Both the position numbers and the translations under genes were made by a program. A stretch of 64,000 nt of DNA from Roseateles sp. SL47 (GTDB taxonomy: Bacteria; Pseudomonadota; Gammaproteobacteria; Burkholderiales; Burkholderiaceae_C), in assembly GCF_026625885.1 (NCBI RefSeq), contig NZ_CP113068.1:1612001-1676000 (forward strand). Reading direction: 5' to 3'. The notes beneath the pieces are model-generated. The model was not told the DNA's origin. It made no database searches and saw only the letters and a list, made by a program, of their open reading frames with translations. This document shows positions 55,026 through 64,000 of this stretch, one piece after another (position 1 is the first letter of the stretch; each line of letters starts with the position of its first letter).

Positions 55026-55100
55026 GACGAAGTGAATGTGGACGATGACGAAACGTCAGGCTAGCAGGCTTTTTCGACGATCTGGTGCTTTCTTTCGTCG
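55026..55100. promoter_or_regulatory. Array of GACGA half sites between the Lrp gene and the lysine operon
   Basis: GACGA occurs at 55026-55030, 55041-55045, 55047-55051 and 55076-55080, with TCGTC at 55095-55099. Two of these make inverted repeats: TGACG-AAA-CGTCA (55046-55058) and CGACGA with TCGTCG (55075-55080, 55095-55100). Lrp-type octamers bind such spaced arrays. The space is 169 bases long and holds both start regions. Confidence 0.55.
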
Positions 55101-55177
55101 CCAGCCCTGGGGAGACTGCGGACAGCTTTGCAAAAACGCTTCGCTCGCATCTCAAACCAGGAACAAGGAGTCGACTC

Positions 55178-56272
55178 ATGAAAGTGGCACTGCTGGGCGC
55201 CGGACACATCGGCCAGACCATCGCGCGCCTGCTGCACGGCAGCGGGGATTACCAGGTCACCGTGATGGACCGCAATGCACAGGCCCTGGCCCTGCTGGCC
55301 AGGGAAGGCATTGGCACCCAGCAGGTGGACACCGAGCACCAGCCGGCCCTGGCCGCCGCGCTGCGTGGGCAGCAGACGGTGGTGAATGCGTTGCCCTACC
55401 ACCTGGCGATTCCAGCCGCCCACATGGCGCTGGAGGCGGGCTGCCACTATTTCGACCTGACCGAAGACGTTGCCGCCACCCAGGAAATCAAGCGCATCGC
55501 CGAAGGCGCCAAGACCGCCTTCATGCCGCAGTGCGGCCTGGCGCCCGGCTTCATCGGCATCGTGGCCCATCATCTGGCCAAGCGCTTCGATGAACTGCAG
55601 GACGTGAAGATGCGGGTCGGTGCCCTGCCGGCCTTCCCCACCAACGCCCTCAAATACAACCTGACCTGGAGCGTGGATGGGCTGATCAATGAGTACTGCC
55701 ATCCCTGCGAGGCCATCCACGACGGCCAGGCCATCTCGGCGCTGCCGCTGGAAGGGCTGGAGCATTTCTCGCTGGACGGGACCGAGTATGAAGCGTTCAA
55801 CACCTCCGGCGGCCTCGGCACGCTTTGCGAAACCTGGGCCGGCCAGGTGCGCAACCTGGACTACAAGACCGTTCGCTACCCCGGCCACCGTGACCTGATG
55901 ATGTTGCTGCTGGACGACCTGCAGCTCAAAAACGACCAGCAGACCCTCAAGGACATCATGCGCCGCAGCATGCCGGCCACCATGCAGGACGTGGTGCTGG
56001 TGTTTGTCACCGTGTCCGGCATGAAGAACGGCATGCTGATGCAGGAAGTCTTCGCGCGGAAGATCTTTGCCCAGCGGGAAGGTGATCAGCCGCTGTCGGC
56101 CATCCAGATCACCACGGCCGCTGGCATCTGCGCCGCCGTGGACCTGTTCCGCGAAGGCCGCCTGCCGCCAAGCGGCTTCATCCGGCAGGAAGAAGTGGCC
56201 CTGCCTGATTTCCTGGCCAACCGCTTCGGCCAGGCCTATCAGCAGTCTCGTCAGGTGGAGTCCATCGGCTGA
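55178..56272 (+). CDS. Saccharopine-dehydrogenase-family protein, probable L-lysine 6-dehydrogenase
   Basis: This 364-residue oxidoreductase has a Rossmann motif GAGHIG at residues 7-12, an LTEDVAATQEIKRIAEGAKTAFMPQCGLAPG region typical of the saccharopine dehydrogenase-like fold, and FPTNALKYNLTWSVDGLINEY with the substrate-side residues. It has an AAGGAG site before the ATG. Within this fold some proteins are L-lysine 6-dehydrogenases, which oxidise the epsilon-amino group to give aminoadipate semialdehyde/piperideine-6-carboxylate. The next gene codes the enzyme that would use that product, which is the main reason for the assignment. Saccharopine dehydrogenase proper is the other option; no lysine-ketoglutarate reductase partner is present. 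Confidence 0.75.
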   Translation: MKVALLGAGHIGQTIARLLHGSGDYQVTVMDRNAQALALLAREGIGTQQVDTEHQPALAAALRGQQTVVNALPYHLAIPAAHMALEAGCHYFDLTEDVAATQEIKRIAEGAKTAFMPQCGLAPGFIGIVAHHLAKRFDELQDVKMRVGALPAFPTNALKYNLTWSVDGLINEYCHPCEAIHDGQAISALPLEGLEHFSLDGTEYEAFNTSGGLGTLCETWAGQVRNLDYKTVRYPGHRDLMMLLLDDLQLKNDQQTLKDIMRRSMPATMQDVVLVFVTVSGMKNGMLMQEVFARKIFAQREGDQPLSAIQITTAAGICAAVDLFREGRLPPSGFIRQEEVALPDFLANRFGQAYQQSRQVESIG

Positions 56273-56286
56273 AGGAGAATCGACCC

Positions 56287-57792
56287 ATGAGCATTGCAAG
56301 CACCGATCTGCTGGCCGCCCTGGGCGTGCCGAGCACCGCCTTCACCGGCGGCTCCCTGACTGTCCGCAGCCCCATCGACGGCGCCGTGATTGGCGCGGTG
56401 CCGGAGGCCGCCGCCGCCGCCATGAGCGAGGCCGTGGGCCGTGCCCACACCGCCTTCCTGGCCTGGCGCCAGGTGCCCGCCCCCAAGCGTGGGGAACTGG
56501 TCCGCCTGTTTGGCGAGGAACTGCGCACCCACAAGGCAGACCTGGCCCGTCTGGTCTCGCTGGAAGCCGGCAAGGTGACCAGCGAAGGCGAGGGCGAAGT
56601 GCAGGAGATGATCGACATCTGCGATTTCGCAGTCGGCCTCTCCCGCCAGTTGCACGGGCTGACCATTGCCAGCGAGCGCCCCGGCCACCGCATGATGGAG
56701 CAGTACCTGCCCCTGGGGGTGGTGGGCATCATTTCCGCCTTTAATTTCCCGGTGGCGGTGTGGGCCTGGAACTCCGCGCTGGCCCTGGTGTGTGGGGACA
56801 CCTGCATCTGGAAGCCCAGCGAAAAGACGCCGTTGACGGCCCTGGCCACGCAGGCGCTGTTTGAGAAGGCGGTGGCCCGTTATGCCGGCGCCCCTGCGCA
56901 TCTGTCGCAGGTGGTGGTGGGCGGTGCCGCTGTGGGCGAGACCCTGGTGGACAACCCCCGTGTGGCCCTGGTGTCGGCCACGGGGTCCACCCGCATGGGC
57001 CGCGCCGTGGGGCCCCGCGTGGCCGCGCGTTTTGGCCGCTGCCTGCTGGAACTGGGCGGCAACAACGCCATCATCGTCACCCCCAGCGCCGACCTGGATC
57101 TGGCGGTGCGCGGCATTTTGTTCGGTGCCTACGGCACGGCCGGCCAGCGCTGCACCACCACGCGTCGTGTGATTGCGCATGAATCCATCCATGACGAGCT
57201 GGTCCAGCGGCTGGAGCGCGCCCGCGCCCAACTCAAGATCGGCAGCCCGATCGAAGCCGGCAACCTCATCGGCCCGCTGATCGACAAGGCCGCGTTTGAT
57301 GCCATGCAGGCAGCACTGGCGGCCGCTCGGGCGCAGGGCGGGGAAGTGACCGGTGGCGAGCGTGCGCTGGCGTCGCGTTATCCGGAAGCCTGGTATGCCG
57401 TGCCCGCGCTGGTGCGCATGCCGGCGCAGACGGCGGTGGTGCGCCAGGAAACCTTCGCCCCCATCCTCTACACCCTTCAATACAAGACGCTGGACGAAGC
57501 CATTGCGCTGCAAAACGATGTGCCGCAGGGCTTGTCTTCGGCCATCTTCACCAACGACATCCGTGAGGCCGAAACCTTTGTCAGCGCCACCGGGTCTGAC
57601 TGCGGTATCGCCAACGTGAACATCGGCACCTCCGGCGCCGAGATCGGCGGGGCCTTTGGCGGGGAGAAGGAAACCGGCGGTGGCCGCGAGTCCGGCTCTG
57701 ATGCCTGGAAGGCCTACATGCGCCGCACCACCAATACCGTCAACTATTCGCGCGAGTTGCCGCTGGCGCAGGGTGTGAAGTTCGATGTCTGA
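56287..57792 (+). CDS. amaB: Aldehyde dehydrogenase of the ALDH7 family, probable piperideine-6-carboxylate dehydrogenase
   Basis: This 501-residue dehydrogenase has Glu255 (LLELGGNNA) and the catalytic Cys289 (GTAGQRCTT). The SAFNFPVAVWAWNSALALVCG and GGAFGGEKETGGGRESGSDAWKAYMRR stretches are characteristic of ALDH7/antiquitin, whose bacterial members oxidise aminoadipate semialdehyde (in equilibrium with piperideine-6-carboxylate) to 2-aminoadipate using NAD. A GGAGAA site precedes the start, 14 bases after the previous stop. The symbol is given by family and context; the substrate is inferred. Its C terminus overlaps the next gene by eight bases. Confidence 0.88.
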   Translation: MSIASTDLLAALGVPSTAFTGGSLTVRSPIDGAVIGAVPEAAAAAMSEAVGRAHTAFLAWRQVPAPKRGELVRLFGEELRTHKADLARLVSLEAGKVTSEGEGEVQEMIDICDFAVGLSRQLHGLTIASERPGHRMMEQYLPLGVVGIISAFNFPVAVWAWNSALALVCGDTCIWKPSEKTPLTALATQALFEKAVARYAGAPAHLSQVVVGGAAVGETLVDNPRVALVSATGSTRMGRAVGPRVAARFGRCLLELGGNNAIIVTPSADLDLAVRGILFGAYGTAGQRCTTTRRVIAHESIHDELVQRLERARAQLKIGSPIEAGNLIGPLIDKAAFDAMQAALAAARAQGGEVTGGERALASRYPEAWYAVPALVRMPAQTAVVRQETFAPILYTLQYKTLDEAIALQNDVPQGLSSAIFTNDIREAETFVSATGSDCGIANVNIGTSGAEIGGAFGGEKETGGGRESGSDAWKAYMRRTTNTVNYSRELPLAQGVKFDV

Positions 57793-58900
57793 GTTGGGAA
57801 CGATCCAAACGTCCTCCGCTGCTCCCCAGGCCGCCTCTCTGGCGGCTGCGGCAACACAGGGGCAGGCGGTGGAGCAGACGGGTGTCTTCCGGCTGCTGAC
57901 GGTGGCGCTGGGGGAGGTACTGGCTCGCCAGGCCTTTGCGCAGTTGCATGTGGTGCCTGCATTGCTGCGCCCGGTGGAGGCGTGGGTGAGCCGCGCCGAA
58001 CTGGCGCAGGCCCTGAACATGGCGCTGTTCCTCGACGTCACCCGGCGGGTGCCGATGGCGTCGGCCTATGTGGCGGACCTGCAGCGGGCCGGCGAGCGGC
58101 TCGTGTTTGACCATGGCGCGTTGCGCACGGTGGCCTGGCCGAGTGGCCAGCTCCCGCCCGGCGAAGCCTCCATCACACGTGTGCTGCGGCCGTTGGGATT
58201 CGAGATGGCGGCCACCTATCCGCTGCCTCGGCTGAAGATGACCGGTCGGGCCTGGCGTCATGCCGACCTGCCGGAGGACGTGGCGCAGTACTTTGTCTCC
58301 GAACTGCATCCGGAGCGTTTCTCCGAAGGCTTCCAGGCGACGGTGACGCGGGTGTTGTCCACATCGCGAGATCCGCTGTCGCCGGCCGACCTCGCCTTGC
58401 TGGAGCAACTCGCGCGTGACCGGCAGTTGCCCTTTGCAGCGGCGGAGGTCCTGTTGCCGCATCTCATCGCCTGCTTTGCGCGCCACCATGGGCTGTTTGA
58501 AGCGGACGACTATCAGCAACTGCTGAGCGAGTCTGCAGAAATGGCCTGGATCGCCACCGAGGGCCAGGCTTTTAACCATGCCACCGACCGTGTGGCCGAC
58601 GTCGCCGCAGTGGCCGAGGCGCAGCGGGCGCTGGGCCGGCCAGTGAAGGACAGTGTGGAAACCTCGGCCACCGGCCGCGTGCGCCAGACCGCCTTCCGCG
58701 CAGCACGGGTGATGCGCGAGTTTCACGACCGTGGGCAGCGGGTGATGCTGGAAGTGCCTGGCAGCTTCCATGAGTTCATCCAGCGTGAGCCCTTGCCCGG
58801 CTCCACGGCACTGGACCTGGCGTTTGACGCGGGCAATGCCACCGGCATCTTCAAGATGACCGCCGGACGTGCCACCACCGACGAGGCTCCGACATGCTGA
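57785..58900 (+). CDS. DUF1338 protein, probable 2-oxoadipate dioxygenase/decarboxylase (HglS-like)
   Basis: This 371-residue protein starts eight bases inside the end of the ALDH gene. DUF1338 features are visible: the DHGALRTV motif with His110 and Arg114, the FNHATDRV motif with His265, and PGSFHEFIQRE with Glu331. The spacings (His-x3-Arg, about 155 residues to the second His, about 66 to the Glu) match, from memory, the metal ligands His70, His226, Glu294 and the Arg74 of the P. putida enzyme HglS. That enzyme converts 2-oxoadipate with oxygen to D-2-hydroxyglutarate. This protein is shorter than HglS (about 460), so it belongs to a different DUF1338 branch; activity is inferred from motif and operon. 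Confidence 0.82.
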   Translation: MSELGTIQTSSAAPQAASLAAAATQGQAVEQTGVFRLLTVALGEVLARQAFAQLHVVPALLRPVEAWVSRAELAQALNMALFLDVTRRVPMASAYVADLQRAGERLVFDHGALRTVAWPSGQLPPGEASITRVLRPLGFEMAATYPLPRLKMTGRAWRHADLPEDVAQYFVSELHPERFSEGFQATVTRVLSTSRDPLSPADLALLEQLARDRQLPFAAAEVLLPHLIACFARHHGLFEADDYQQLLSESAEMAWIATEGQAFNHATDRVADVAAVAEAQRALGRPVKDSVETSATGRVRQTAFRAARVMREFHDRGQRVMLEVPGSFHEFIQREPLPGSTALDLAFDAGNATGIFKMTAGRATTDEAPTC

Positions 58901-60303
58901 CCGCGCTGCTGGCTCAGGCGCGCGGCCTGTGTGGGGACGCTCATGTGCAGGAGGGCGCCGGCATCGAGCCGCGTTATTTGCAACCGGCCCGGTATGGCGC
59001 AGGGCAGGCGGCGTGCATGGTGCGCCCCTCCAGCGTGGCGGAAGTCTCCGCGCTGATGGCCCTTGCGGCCGACCATGGGGTGCGGGTGATTGCCCAGGGC
59101 GCGCACACAGGGCTGGTGCGCGCCGGCACACCGACGGACGCGCAGCGGGATCTGCTGTTGAGCACCGAACGGCTCAAGCAGGTCTTTGAGCTGGATCTGC
59201 TGGACCGGACCTTGCGGCTGTCGGCGGGCTATCGGCTGTCTGAAGTGAATGAACGGCTGGCCGAGCACGGCTTGTGGTTCCCCGTGGACCTGAGTGCCGA
59301 CCCCAGCATCGGTGGCATGCTGGCCCACAACACCGGCGGTACCCGCATGCTGCGTTATGGAGACGTGCGGGCCAATACCTTGGGGCTGGAAGTGGTGTTG
59401 GCCGAACCGGCGGGGCAGGTGCTGCGGTGTGGCCAGGGCCTGCAGAAGGACAACTCGGCGCTGGCGCTGGGGCATCTGTTCATCGGGTCGTCGGGCAGCC
59501 TGGGTGTCATCACCGAGGCCACGCTCAAGCTGAGCCCACTGCCGCGTCAGCGGGCCGTGGCGCTGGTGGCGCCCAGTGGCCTCGCGCCGGTGTTTCCGCT
59601 CTATCAGACGGTGATGCAGCGCTGGGGTGTGCTGGTGTCGGCCTTTGAGGGCATCAGCCGGGCCGCGCTGGAAGCGGGGCTGCATGGGCAGGATCTGTCC
59701 CGATGGTTCAGTGGCGAGCTGCCGGACTATGCCTTGCTGATTGAACTCAGCAGCGAGCTTCCCTCCGACCAACTCGATCTCCAGGGGCTGCTGCAGGGCT
59801 GGCTGGAAGCTGAGTTTGAGAGCGGCCGGGTGGCAGACGCCGTGCTGGATGCGGACGAGGCCATCTGGGGCCTGCGGCATCGCATCAGCGAAGGGCTGCG
59901 GGTGCAGGGCAAGGTGATCGGGCTGGACCTGTCGCTGCCTCGGCGTGCGTTCATGGTCTTCCGGGAAGAAGGCGCGGCCTGGCTGGCGCTCAACCACCCC
60001 CAACTGCGGCTGGCCGACTTTGGCCATCTGGGCGACGGCGGCCTGCACTTCAACATGGTCTGGCCCAAGGAGGCGGGACCCTTGGACCCGGCGCAAGAAC
60101 TGGCCCTGCGGGAGGGCCTCTATCGGCTGGTGGCGGCGCACGGTGGTTCCATCAGCGCGGAGCATGGTGTGGGACCGCAACTGCAGGAGGCGTATCGGGC
60201 GCATTGGCGTCAGGTCTCGCCTGCGGTGCTGGATTGGGCGGGCCGCGTACAAATGCTCTTTGATCCGCACACACGTTTGGGGGGAACGCAATGGGGCGCA
60301 TAA
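58894..60303 (+). CDS. FAD-linked oxidase, probable D-2-hydroxyglutarate dehydrogenase
   Basis: This 469-residue protein of the GlcD/D-lactate dehydrogenase type starts seven bases inside the preceding gene. The FAD-binding PCMH domain is seen in MVRPSSVAEVSALMALAADHGVRV, AQGAHTGLVRAGTP and DPSIGGMLAHNTGGTRMLRYGDVRANTLG, and the C-terminal substrate domain in FGHLGDGGLHFNMVWPKE, with SAEHGVGPQL near the end. The metal-binding GHLGDGGLH and EHGVG motifs are those of 2-hydroxy-acid dehydrogenases such as YdiJ-N or D2HGDH. In this operon the likely reaction is D-2-hydroxyglutarate to 2-oxoglutarate. No Fe-S domain is fused, unlike YdiJ. Confidence 0.85.
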   Translation: MLTALLAQARGLCGDAHVQEGAGIEPRYLQPARYGAGQAACMVRPSSVAEVSALMALAADHGVRVIAQGAHTGLVRAGTPTDAQRDLLLSTERLKQVFELDLLDRTLRLSAGYRLSEVNERLAEHGLWFPVDLSADPSIGGMLAHNTGGTRMLRYGDVRANTLGLEVVLAEPAGQVLRCGQGLQKDNSALALGHLFIGSSGSLGVITEATLKLSPLPRQRAVALVAPSGLAPVFPLYQTVMQRWGVLVSAFEGISRAALEAGLHGQDLSRWFSGELPDYALLIELSSELPSDQLDLQGLLQGWLEAEFESGRVADAVLDADEAIWGLRHRISEGLRVQGKVIGLDLSLPRRAFMVFREEGAAWLALNHPQLRLADFGHLGDGGLHFNMVWPKEAGPLDPAQELALREGLYRLVAAHGGSISAEHGVGPQLQEAYRAHWRQVSPAVLDWAGRVQMLFDPHTRLGGTQWGA

Positions 60304-60426: not shown

Positions 60427-60511
<85 letters not shown>

Positions 60512-60897: not shown

Positions 60898-61965
60898 ATG
60901 CCCAAACCCGCCACCATCATCGATGTCGCCCGCGAGGCGGGGGTATCGATCAAGACCGTCTCCCGCGTTGTGAACCAGGAGGCCGGGGTACACGCCGAAA
61001 CGCGGGACCAGGTGCAGCAGGTGATGGCGCGGCTGAACTACCGCCCCAAGCAATCCGCCCGAAGCCTGGCCGGTGGCCGGTCCTTTCTCATCGGCCTGCT
61101 GTATTACGACCCCAGCGCGGCCTTCGTGGGCGGCGTCCAGCAAGGGGCCACCTTGCGCTGCCGCGAGGCCGGCTACCATTTGGTGGTGGAATCTCTCCAC
61201 AACGATGCCCCCGACCTGCAGAAGCAGGTGGACCGCATGGTCTCCGCCCTGCGCCCGGACGGCATGATCCTCACTCCCCCGCTGTGCGACAACCCGCAGG
61301 TGCTGCAGGCCCTGCGCGACAGCCAGACCCCCTGTGTACTGATCTCCCCGGCGGCGGACAACCCCGAGCATCCCAGCGTCCGGATGGACGACGTGCATGC
61401 GGCGGAAGAAATCACCAACCTGCTGATCAGCCTGGGCCACCAGCGCATCGCCATCATCAAGGGCGCCAAGGACCAGGTGGCGTCGAAACGTCGCTACCAA
61501 GGGTATGCCGCCGCGCTGAAGGCCCACGGCATCCCGCTGGACAAGGACCTGGTGGTCCAGGGGGACTTCACCTTCCCCACCGGCGTGGACGCCGCTTATC
61601 AGTTGCTGAGCCGCCGCCAGCGGCCCACCGCCGTCTTCGCCAGCAATGATGAAATGGCGCTGGGGGTGCTGGTGGCTGCGCAGCGCCTGGGCCTGGAAGT
61701 GCCAGGGGACCTGTCGATCGCCGGTTTTGACGACACACCCGCCGCAGCCCGCGTCTGGCCTCCGCTGACCACCGTGCGCCAGCCCATGGATGAAATGGCG
61801 CGTGCGGCCGTTGATCTGCTGGTCGGCGCGCCACGGTCCGGGGAGGGCGCCGGGGAGGCCGTCACGCAGGCGGGGCAGCACCGCGTGCTCAAGCACGAAC
61901 TGATCGTGCGTGACTCCACCGCCGCCTCGCTGCACAAACCCACACGCGCCCGCAAAGGCGCCTGA
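60898..61965 (+). CDS. LacI-family regulator, probable controller of the halogenase/receptor promoters
   Basis: This 355-residue regulator starts MPKPATIIDVAREAGVSIKTVSRVVNQEAG, the LacI HTH with hinge helix (YRPKQSARSLAGGRS), followed by a sugar-binding-like domain (LIGLLYYDPSAAFVGGVQQG, PDGMILTPPL, HQRIAIIKGAKD, RPTAVFASNDEMALGVLVAAQRLGLEVPGDLSIAGFDDTP). Members of this subgroup beside TonB-dependent receptors usually sense sugars. The start at 60898 puts the HTH at its usual place; the six-codon upstream extension from a TTG is not used. It is convergent with the halogenase gene, with four bases between the stops. Two LacI-type palindromes lie before the halogenase and receptor genes at 63673-63710. 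Confidence 0.93.
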   Translation: MPKPATIIDVAREAGVSIKTVSRVVNQEAGVHAETRDQVQQVMARLNYRPKQSARSLAGGRSFLIGLLYYDPSAAFVGGVQQGATLRCREAGYHLVVESLHNDAPDLQKQVDRMVSALRPDGMILTPPLCDNPQVLQALRDSQTPCVLISPAADNPEHPSVRMDDVHAAEEITNLLISLGHQRIAIIKGAKDQVASKRRYQGYAAALKAHGIPLDKDLVVQGDFTFPTGVDAAYQLLSRRQRPTAVFASNDEMALGVLVAAQRLGLEVPGDLSIAGFDDTPAAARVWPPLTTVRQPMDEMARAAVDLLVGAPRSGEGAGEAVTQAGQHRVLKHELIVRDSTAASLHKPTRARKGA

Positions 61966-61969
61966 AGCC

Positions 61970-63544
61970 TCAAGCGGCCATCTTCAATCCGGCCCGGCTC
62001 AGCATCAGCTCGATCAGCTCCCGGTGGCGCGGCAGGTCCCGCACGGCATGCTGACCCAACTGGGCAATCATGCGGAACTCCTGCTGTGCCTCTGCTGAGC
62101 GGCGCCAACCCGCGCGGGCACCTTCCAGGCGCGTCTCGTATTCCATCCCATACAGCACATACTGCCAGCTGGCCGGCAGGTACATCTCCACATCGGTGAT
62201 GAAGTCCAGCCGCTGCGGCGGGCGATGGCGCCACATGGCGAGTTTGTCGCGCAGGCTGTCGGGCATGCTGCTGGGGTCCGCGTTGTCGCGCCAGAAGCGG
62301 GTGTCCCGGCGCTGCGTCAGCGCGTAGTGCATCTTGATGAAGTCCACGATGCGGGCATATCGCTCTGACATGAACCGATTGAAGTGGCGGGCCACCGGCT
62401 CGGTATCGCCGTCAAACGGGAACAGCTGTGCAATCAGATAGGCGGCCGTTTCAATCAGCCCGATGCCGGAGGATTCCAGCGGTTCCAGGAACCCGCCGGA
62501 CAGGCCCACGGCCACGCAGTTCTTCACCCACTGCGTTTCTCGATAACCCACATTGAGCGTCAGCTTGCGCGGTGTCAGTGACTGCGCAGCCGGGCCGATG
62601 TAGTGACGCAGTTCCCGCTCCGCAGACTCGTCATCCGTGTGCCGGCTGCTGTAGACATGCCCGATGCCGCGACGCTCCTGCAGTCCGATATCCCAGATCC
62701 ACCCATGGTGCTGGGCCGTGGCCATCGTGCAGGAGGCAATCGGCGCGTCCGGCCGCTCATACGGCACCTGCATGGCCAAGGCGCGGTCCACAAACAGGAC
62801 ATCCTTCAACGGCTTGAAGGCAGAGCCCAGCGCCTGTCCGATCAACCGGGCATGAAAGCCGCTGCAATCCACATACAGCCCGGCCCGCAGCACACCGGCT
62901 TCGCGCGTGTGCACCGCCTCAATCGCACCTTGTTCATCCAGCGCCACCTGATCGACAGTGGCAATCACTCGTTTCACGCCCAGCGACTGGGCCTGCTCGG
63001 CCAGCAACACCGCAAAGCGCCCCGCATCGAAGTGATAGGCATAGTTGAGTGCGCCCTGGAAATCACCATCGCCGGCCCGCTTGGGCCCATGACGCGCATC
63101 CACCACCGCCTTCTGCAGGGTCACGGCTTCTGCAAAGGCCCGGTCGGGACCTGCGTCGCCCATCAGCCAGTACGGCAGCAGTTCCGGCGCGCCCGGGCGC
63201 TGGCTTGGCAGGCTGAAAGGATGGAAGTAGTGATCGCTGCCTCGCTGCTCCGGCCCTCGTTCCGCCACCGGCGGACGCACCCAGTCATTGAACTGCACCC
63301 CCTGTTTGAAGGTCGCGGAGCAGGCCTGCAGAAATCGCGATTCCGAAATGCCGATGGCAGACAGGGTCCCCCGAATCGAGGGGAAGGTGCCTTCACCGAC
63401 GCCGATGATGCCAATGTCGCTAGCCTCCACCAGCGTGATGCGAACCCCACCATGGGCCGTGCCGAGGTGCTGCGCCAGAAACGCCGCCGTCAGCCAGCCG
63501 GCCGTACCGCCACCCACAATGAGAATGTCCTCAATCGCCTTCAT
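61970..63544 (-). CDS. Flavin-dependent halogenase-family protein (tryptophan 7-halogenase-like)
   Basis: This 524-residue protein has the FAD motif GGGTAGW at residues 11-17, the active-site Lys80 in SATFKQGVQFNDW (the residue that holds the hypohalous species in PrnA, Lys79), and Glu357 in GGFLEPLESSGIG, matching PrnA Glu346. The signature that marks halogenases, WxWxIP, reads here WIWDIG (282-287), so Pro is replaced by Gly. The length fits the family. The start has GGAG nine bases upstream. Homologues next to TonB-dependent receptors are widespread in proteobacteria and their substrates are mostly unknown; few have proven halogenation. Its position under a LacI-type operator suggests a role in carbohydrate or glycan uptake, not antibiotic synthesis. 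Confidence 0.9.
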   Translation of the reverse strand: MKAIEDILIVGGGTAGWLTAAFLAQHLGTAHGGVRITLVEASDIGIIGVGEGTFPSIRGTLSAIGISESRFLQACSATFKQGVQFNDWVRPPVAERGPEQRGSDHYFHPFSLPSQRPGAPELLPYWLMGDAGPDRAFAEAVTLQKAVVDARHGPKRAGDGDFQGALNYAYHFDAGRFAVLLAEQAQSLGVKRVIATVDQVALDEQGAIEAVHTREAGVLRAGLYVDCSGFHARLIGQALGSAFKPLKDVLFVDRALAMQVPYERPDAPIASCTMATAQHHGWIWDIGLQERRGIGHVYSSRHTDDESAERELRHYIGPAAQSLTPRKLTLNVGYRETQWVKNCVAVGLSGGFLEPLESSGIGLIETAAYLIAQLFPFDGDTEPVARHFNRFMSERYARIVDFIKMHYALTQRRDTRFWRDNADPSSMPDSLRDKLAMWRHRPPQRLDFITDVEMYLPASWQYVLYGMEYETRLEGARAGWRRSAEAQQEFRMIAQLGQHAVRDLPRHRELIELMLSRAGLKMAA

Positions 63545-63656
63545 GCCGGTTGTCTCCGTGTTTATGCTGTGTTGTGCAAAGGCATCAGTCGTCCGGGATT
63601 GCCCTGCCCATGGGACCTGTGACGCGTCGAGAGGGCAGGAGAGCGACTACGGGTAA

Positions 63657-63687
63657 ATGATAGTGCCCGAAATGACAACGGTGTCAA
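63657..63687 (-). promoter_or_regulatory. Candidate promoter of the halogenase gene
   Basis: On the minus strand TTGACA (63687 to 63682) and TATCAT (63662 to 63657) are spaced by 19 bases. The -35 box lies inside the first palindrome, so a bound LacI-type protein would block it. Confidence 0.55.
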
Positions 63688-63710
63688 TGTTCTCGTTGAC
63701 AACGTTGTCA
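63673..63710. promoter_or_regulatory. Two LacI-type operators
   Basis: TGACAACGGTGTCA (63673-63686, one mismatch pair) and TGACAACGTTGTCA (63697-63710, perfect) have their centres 24 bases apart. The even palindrome with central CG is the classical LacI-family operator form, and the LacI gene is the nearest regulator. Confidence 0.85.
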
Positions 63711-63725
63711 GCGATTGCCTAGGAT
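63696..63725 (+). promoter_or_regulatory. Candidate promoter of the receptor gene
   Basis: TTGACA (63696-63701), spacer of 18, TAGGAT (63720-63725). The -35 box overlaps the second, perfect palindrome. Together with the minus-strand promoter this gives mirror-image control of both genes. Confidence 0.65.
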
Positions 63726-63785
63726 CGCCATCAAATCACAAGAGCAACCTTTCAAGAGCTTCCCGAAAGCCACCCAGGAGACAAC

Positions 63786-64000
63786 ATGACTTCAGCTTCG
63801 TCCCGCAGGCCAGCCATTGGGCTGGTGACCCCCGTTCAGATGGCAGTTCTAGCCTTGATGGCCGGCGCGGTCCACGCTCAGCAGGCCCCTGACACCCCCG
63901 CGCCTCAGCCCGCCCCTCAACAGGAATCCGCCCCTCAGGGCAGCACCGGTGCCACCGCCGAAACCAAGGACGGCAAGCAGGCCTTGCCGCAGGTGCTGGT
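63786..64000 (+). CDS. Start of a probable TonB-dependent receptor (runs off the window)
   Basis: Seventy-one codons are visible from the ATG at 63786, which follows AGGAG by about five bases. A signal peptide (VQMAVLALMAGAVHA) is followed by a Pro/Gln-rich segment (QQAPDTPAPQPAPQQ) and the start of a plug-like region (KQALPQVLV). A Pro/Gln segment between signal and plug is common in TonB-dependent receptors of this phylum. The identification rests on these and on the halogenase/LacI context; the conserved plug and barrel lie outside. Confidence 0.7.
   Translation, partial: MTSASSRRPAIGLVTPVQMAVLALMAGAVHAQQAPDTPAPQPAPQQESAPQGSTGATAETKDGKQALPQVL

Follow-up and report, generated by a model that had tools for sequence, protein, structure and literature searches.

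What is a flavoenzyme of the "tryptophan halogenase" family (PF04820) doing beside a LacI-type regulator and a gene for outer-membrane uptake? Pairings of halogenase-family genes with TonB-dependent receptors are widespread, and one such locus lies in Roseateles sp. SL47, whose genome is a single contig of 6,388,479 bases; the window analysed here is the 64-kb stretch 1612001-1676000 of that contig. An initial annotation had laid out a LacI gene, a halogenase-family gene and a diverging gene, with two palindromes in the 241-base space that separates the last two, and each of these elements was found in its place. The diverging gene, taken at the time for a receptor gene, is one: the whole protein, read past position 64000, carries both the barrel (PF00593) and the plug (PF07715) of a TonB-dependent receptor, and the glycoside hydrolase (GH) that had been expected nearby follows behind it as a GH1 beta-glucosidase gene. 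Comparison with related genomes, which brings out the composition of the locus, the conservation and distribution of its predicted operator and the co-variation of that operator with the LacI recognition helix, indicates that the locus is likely a LacI-controlled regulon for the uptake and hydrolysis of cellobiose or another beta-glucoside.

The two even palindromes start 24 bp apart in the 241-bp gap. A genome-wide search for the palindrome, which the initial annotation had suggested, found the exact pattern TGACAACGNTGTCA at two places in 6.39 Mb, both of them in the gap, and the reversed control pattern at none. When up to three mismatches were allowed, the 64-kb window gave 3 matches against 1.86 expected, so that the window alone is weak evidence and the weight rests on the comparative data. 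The palindromes had also been placed over candidate −35 boxes, and for the receptor side this is strong, as the candidate promoter there, with its 18-nt spacer, was the sole promoter-like site that the scan returned between 63480 and 63850 (1 found against 0.2 expected in shuffles). For the halogenase side it is weaker: the TTGACA hexamer is perfect, and the −10 candidates stand at a spacer of 16 nt (CACTAT) or 19 nt (TATCAT).

With at most one mismatch, the operator was found in 15 of 16 genomes of the genus, and its reversed control in none of the 16. The same 15 genomes carry the full-length enzyme beside the operator, and the remaining one (G009), which lacks the operator, holds an enzyme fragment of 24 bits only. 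Beyond the genus, an exact copy occurs in 4 of 59 genomes of the family. The sites unlinked to the locus were inspected one by one (39 from relatives and two from SL47, 41 together). Twelve, from 12 genus genomes, lie between malQ and a gene for a Na+/H+ antiporter, six precede an operon for GH9 and GH48 cellulases, and seven, from seven genomes, precede a gene for a transporter of the major facilitator superfamily (MFS). GH48 is found in seven of the 16 genus genomes; the operator stands before GH9-GH48 in six of them at the limit of one mismatch, and in the seventh (G001) a site with two mismatches lies 67 bp before the GH9 match, which makes seven of seven. In SL47 the GH9-GH48 operon, whose GH9 upstream region is at 3122386, is 1.45 Mb away from the locus. 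Site L097 (TGACAACGTTATCC) was dropped because it falls within an open reading frame without a Pfam match, or on the border of one.

No genome belongs both to the seven with the operator before GH9-GH48 and to the seven with it before the MFS gene, as though cellulose degraders and scavengers had gone separate ways. A gene for a flavin reductase-like protein (PF01613, 79 bits; L096:1531-2130) stands some 5 kb away from the GH9-GH48 operon; halogenase-type enzymes require reduced flavin.

Do the palindromes belong to the LacI protein encoded beside them? An even palindrome with a central CG is a predicted LacI site, and both the co-variation and the distribution of the operator agree in suggesting that this is one. 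The recognition helix of the locus LacI reads VSIKTVSRVVN, and among the 11 LacI-family helix-turn-helix domains of the SL47 genome the motif xKTVSR occurs in this one only. For the relatives, taken as the best 80 of 540 confirmed by the halogenase-family protein, the best LacI of every locus was read for its helix, and this was compared with the operators in the gap, LacI being present in 54 of the 80. Helices of the form xK-T-SR are accompanied by TGACA-type operators (TGACANCGNTGTCA, type A, the first type) in 27/27 loci, and other LacI helices by TGAAA-type operators (TGAAANCGNTTTCA, type B, the second type) in 26/27; the one left over (L090) has neither an operator nor a diverging receptor. 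Where a gap holds several operators, the spacing from one to the next is mostly 21-24 bp, which is about two turns of the helix; type A keeps to this range in 22 of 26 spacings, and type B lies mostly at 21 bp. Operator type thus tracks helix type, and the earlier assignment of the palindromes to LacI is in keeping with this comparison.

The surroundings of the enzyme in the relatives fit a sugar regulon. The receptor diverges within 700 bp of the enzyme in 79 of the 80, and the neighbouring genes, counted in flanks of at most 10 kb, many of which are ended by contig ends, include GH1 (61 loci), MFS (49), MFS or a permease of the ATP-binding cassette (ABC) type (66), an ABC sugar-binding protein (14), glucokinase (24), GH9 (8) and an antiporter (5). 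As an independent test, GH1 genes with an upstream region of their own were examined, and they have an operator within 600 bp in 22 of 22 cases, against 86 of 3346 random windows; 21 of these operators are of the second type and one, directly past the stop codon of the enzyme in L037, is of the first, so that, whichever LacI lineage is considered, the enzyme, the receptor and the beta-glucosidase have an operator in common. The proposal that the locus responds to sugar thereby finds support in the comparison, with the palindromes marking a sugar regulon at the GH1, GH9-GH48 and MFS sites.

From these comparisons we infer binding, repression, an inducer and an order of steps. While sugar is absent, a LacI dimer would sit on the two neighbouring operators over the −35 boxes and close both divergent promoters; on arrival of a beta-1,4-glucoside, for which cellobiose or a cello-oligosaccharide is the likeliest candidate, LacI would leave. 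The receptor would then take the sugar across the outer membrane, an inner-membrane transporter would carry it onward, and GH1 would cleave it in the cytoplasm, with the halogenase-family flavoenzyme being produced simultaneously. The same LacI would also reach the GH9-GH48 cellulase operon and the Na+/H+ antiporter. From the enzymes that appear to be co-regulated, the choice of inducer narrows to cellobiose or some beta-glucoside related to it. That it is instead glucose or a beta-glucoside other than cellobiose, such as gentiobiose or laminaribiose, is a tentative alternative: GH1, ABC or MFS transporters and glucokinase suit many beta-glucosides, and passages of PMC4052901 propose that GluR and BglR of Caulobacterales sense glucose and beta-glucosides, but the presence of the cellulose enzymes GH48 and GH9 under the operator in all seven GH48 genomes argues for cellobiose.

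What the flavoenzyme contributes to such a regulon is the harder question. The GxGxxG fingerprint is present (G11, G13 and G16 are invariant in 29 aligned relatives), as are the catalytic lysine and glutamate (K80 and E357) and W282, W284, D285 and I286, also invariant in these 29. Where halogenases read WxWxIP, a motif that passages of PMC5945002 suggest prevents monooxygenase activity, the enzyme of the window reads GWIWDIGL. In all 81 sequences (the 80 relatives and the window's own) W.W.I is kept and the proline is replaced, by glycine in 80 and by alanine in one, and the motif is altered likewise in the 13 plasmid relatives examined out of 91 records. The PF04820 label is therefore read as a family name that does not imply halogenation. 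In the alignment, BrvH, Xcc4156 and 9luq have W.W.IPL, as do the four other halogenase-family genes of the genus that were examined, out of 14 longer matches. Among relatives with a solved structure, the closest are 9lu2, 2pyx and 9ltb (E 1e-127 to 1e-118). The initial annotation had proposed that the enzyme modifies an imported or periplasmic compound; by eye, its N-terminus leads directly into the FAD-binding stretch MKAIEDILIVGGGTAGW, which makes a cytoplasmic place likelier. The enzyme is most likely a cytoplasmic one dependent on reduced flavin adenine dinucleotide (FADH2) that would act on an aromatic or indole-like group accompanying uptake and add either halogen or oxygen to it. On a Croceibacterium plasmid (L183:7995-11083), a WDIG-type gene and a WxWxIP-type gene stand in tandem behind one receptor, the second copy reading W.W.IPL.

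The plasmid relatives, all with WDIG-type enzymes, were also viewed for their surroundings at 13 loci, of which four are without annotation, so that the counts cover the other nine. The receptor adjoins the enzyme in seven of the nine, and sugar enzymes of differing kinds are found in eight (beta-glucosidase, xylosidase/GH43, GH3/GH8, GH9, GH2 and xylanase); the receptor is accordingly the steadier companion. In two of the nine (H4 and H7) a cation:proton antiporter adjoins the enzyme or is separated from it by a single small module; antiporters near the enzyme are thus met both in these two plasmid loci and in the five relatives counted above. SapC or cupin genes, which the initial annotation had expected nearby, are absent from the SL47 locus, where LacI, receptor, GH1 and an M13 peptidase are found, and a receptor-SapC-cupin-halogenase operon (PF07277, PF13621) is not present at it; the single SapC of the genome lies well away from the locus (5664083 as compared with 1.67 Mb). 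The expectation does apply to alphaproteobacterial relatives, as SapC is next to the receptor in 5/9 and a cupin present in 4/9 of the annotated plasmid loci. Among the WxWxIP-type genes of the genus, those in L198, L199 and L201 lie with a TonB receptor and Cupin_8, and in L198 and L201 with SapC too, while L200 has neither SapC nor cupin. The idea that SapC and cupin are confined to the WxWxIP subtype was dropped in view of the five plasmid loci with SapC beside WDIG-type enzymes.

Two readings of the chemistry were considered, and both are doubtful. The enzyme could be a true halogenase carried on the regulon, one that brominates or chlorinates indole or phenol to give a product for competition or signalling on plant material, outside sugar metabolism. 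The catalytic lysine pattern is retained in 79/81 sequences and the glutamate pattern in 81/81, and the more distant BrvH and Xcc4156 brominate indoles in vitro according to passages of PMC5945002 and PMC7336383; against this stand the departure from WxWxIP in all 81 sequences and in all 13 plasmid relatives, the lack of biosynthetic genes seen beside the enzyme and the fact that its constant neighbour is the receptor. Alternatively, and with the same reserve, it could work in the manner of a monooxygenase and remove or modify aromatic aglycones imported together with the sugar, from plant aryl-beta-glucosides or lignocellulose. This would suit the change to glycine or alanine at the proline of the motif suggested to prevent monooxygenase activity (PMC5945002), and the pairing with the receptor, which is constant while the sugar enzymes vary between beta-glucosidase, xylan, GH2 and GH9 loci. 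It fits less well with the retention of the halogen-handling lysine, with the co-regulation of GH9-GH48, which indicates plain cellobiose, and with a locus in which no aromatic catabolic genes were seen.

LodB and QhpG are relatives that modify partner proteins. By analogy, WDIG-type enzymes might make no halogenated metabolites and serve instead as flavin-dependent modifiers of their receptor or of its uptake machinery, acting before export on an aromatic residue in the TonB-dependent receptor or on a ligand that it carries; this would account for a receptor that is constant (79/80) amid changing sugar enzymes, which is the ground for the idea and not evidence of it, and it is regarded as quite improbable. 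Membership in the LodB, QhpG or GoxB families themselves was rejected, the scores being 31 of 400, 38 of 240 and 19 of 400 bits, respectively, relative to the NCBIfam cut-offs.

Several observations weigh against the LacI-controlled beta-glucoside regulon, or reduce the force of what was said for it. A scan of the SL47 genome with up to two mismatches returned 22 sites and 16 for the reversed control, no excess, and as it does not discriminate, the limit of one mismatch and the relatives were used. The genus genomes G001-G015 overlap nine of the relatives' loci (L015-L024), and the two sets are not independent. The 53 co-varying loci amount to one widely inherited replacement and not to 53 tests, since on a tree of the 80 enzymes and the window's own the operator label switches a single time (group A, 29 rows, support 100/96). 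In 26 of the 80 loci no LacI is present in the fetched flank and operators are still found (24 of the second type, one of the first and one with both), so that the linkage is not general. Of the 41 unlinked sites, 13 are without a sensible target, and three (TGTCAACGTTGACA; L135, L138 and L146) precede an ABC-GH1 cluster beside two other LacI genes, one of which probably owns these palindromes. No operator precedes the MFS orthologue of SL47 itself (4086466, 84% identical), and in two of the nine annotated plasmid loci there is no receptor next to the enzyme. Finally, the GH1 gene of SL47 is not continuous as sequenced: the first 18 residues are read in one frame and the catalytic domain in another (window-equivalent 66376-66580, L003:7376-7580), the domain frame being open for 439 aa and without ATG, GTG or TTG before the residues VACDH. 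Of the 61 relatives with GH1, 60 have it uninterrupted, and in the last the match is partial and starts at residue 149; in SL47 either an error of sequencing or a genuine loss could explain the break. The genome encodes another GH1 at 3825108. That the palindromes belong to another regulator altogether, with the adjacent LacI controlling something else, could draw on the 26 LacI-less loci and on the 11 LacI-family genes of the genome, of which one lies 2.3 kb away from GH9, but is very unlikely given that helix and operator co-vary and that the other ten helices lack xKTVSR.

Features of the locus and of the antiporter sites (positions in the window unless another coordinate is given)
Feature	Position	Strand	Support or remark
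LacI-family regulator, 355 aa	60898..61965	+	PF00356 63 bits, PF13377 135 bits
PF04820 "tryptophan halogenase" family flavoenzyme, 524 aa	61970..63544	-	434 bits against a cut-off of 21
Divergent regulatory gap, 241 bp	63545..63785		
Predicted operator 1, TGACAACGGTGTCA	63673..63686		overlaps TTGACA hexamer (63687-63682) oriented to the halogenase gene
Predicted operator 2, TGACAACGTTGTCA	63697..63710		overlaps TTGACA hexamer (63696-63701) oriented to the receptor gene
Candidate sigma-70 promoter of the receptor, TTGACA-18-TAGGAT	63696..63725	+	
TonB-dependent receptor gene, 822 aa	63786 to window-equivalent 66254 (L003:7254)	+	PF00593 125 bits, PF07715 53 bits
GH1 beta-glucosidase gene, behind the receptor	about window-equivalent 66.4-67.75 kb (L003:7429-8748)		
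Antiporter sites	L095:7055 (G000 2806055), L112, L114-L116, L118, L120-L123, L133, L134		PF00999 in own genome

Beyond GH1, on the opposite strand, an M13-type peptidase was recognised by eye. Just upstream of the LacI region lies a tRNA-Leu (cag) at 60427-60511, and before it, at 55085-60303, genes for a saccharopine dehydrogenase-like protein, an aldehyde dehydrogenase, a 2-oxoadipate dioxygenase-like protein (PF07063) and an FAD-linked oxidase stand in a row, which by their family names form a lysine/2-aminoadipate-type catabolic cluster. By the halogenase-family protein, the closest relatives among the matches listed are Roseateles-group Burkholderiales (87-90% identical); viral relatives are distant (27-29% identity, 12 loci).

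How does this locus compare with systems already described? In the open-access literature, no paper was found that combines three of the terms halogenase, TonB-dependent, glycoside hydrolase, SapC family and cupin-like, or that links a tryptophan halogenase with polysaccharide utilization, such absence being weak evidence; the operator core gave unrelated matches only, and the arrangement is absent from the passages drawn on from PMC2996990, PMC4052901, PMC4859513, PMC5945002, PMC7336383 and PMC8269204. The Bgl regulon of Shewanella, under the LacI-family regulator BglR, is alike in having a TonB-dependent receptor, beta-glucosidases, an inner-membrane transporter and glucokinase, and unlike in that the passages from PMC2996990 name no halogenase-family gene, GH9-GH48 cellulases or Na+/H+ antiporter. 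The BglR1-3/GluR groups of Caulobacterales and the CelR and AscG groups, compared by description, are likewise LacI-family regulators of beta-glucoside or glucose use, and the main text of PMC4052901 contains neither "halogenase" nor "TonB".

On the side of the enzyme, BrvH and Xcc4156 (PDB 6frl and 6y1w) are PF04820 flavoenzymes from bacteria with many TonB receptors, as described in passages of PMC5945002 and PMC7336383, the latter stating that the native substrates of BrvH and of three Xanthomonas halogenases are unknown. They differ from the window's enzyme in reading W.W.IPL where it has GWIWDIGL, which is closer to the PDB entries 9lu2, 2pyx and 9ltb. These three, deposited as "tryptophan halogenase", are of the same subtype by motif (WDIAL, WDIGL and WDIAL); a search for functional papers on them returned 2pyx only, named in two papers as unpublished work. 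The change from proline to glycine thus offers a sharp motif that divides the WDIG subtype from the enzymes shown to brominate. Through the locus of SL47 this subtype is now placed in a predicted regulon for which partner genes, a defined operator and a likely inducer can be named; this suggests when, and with which partners, the job of the enzyme could be studied, namely during growth on cellobiose or cellulose.

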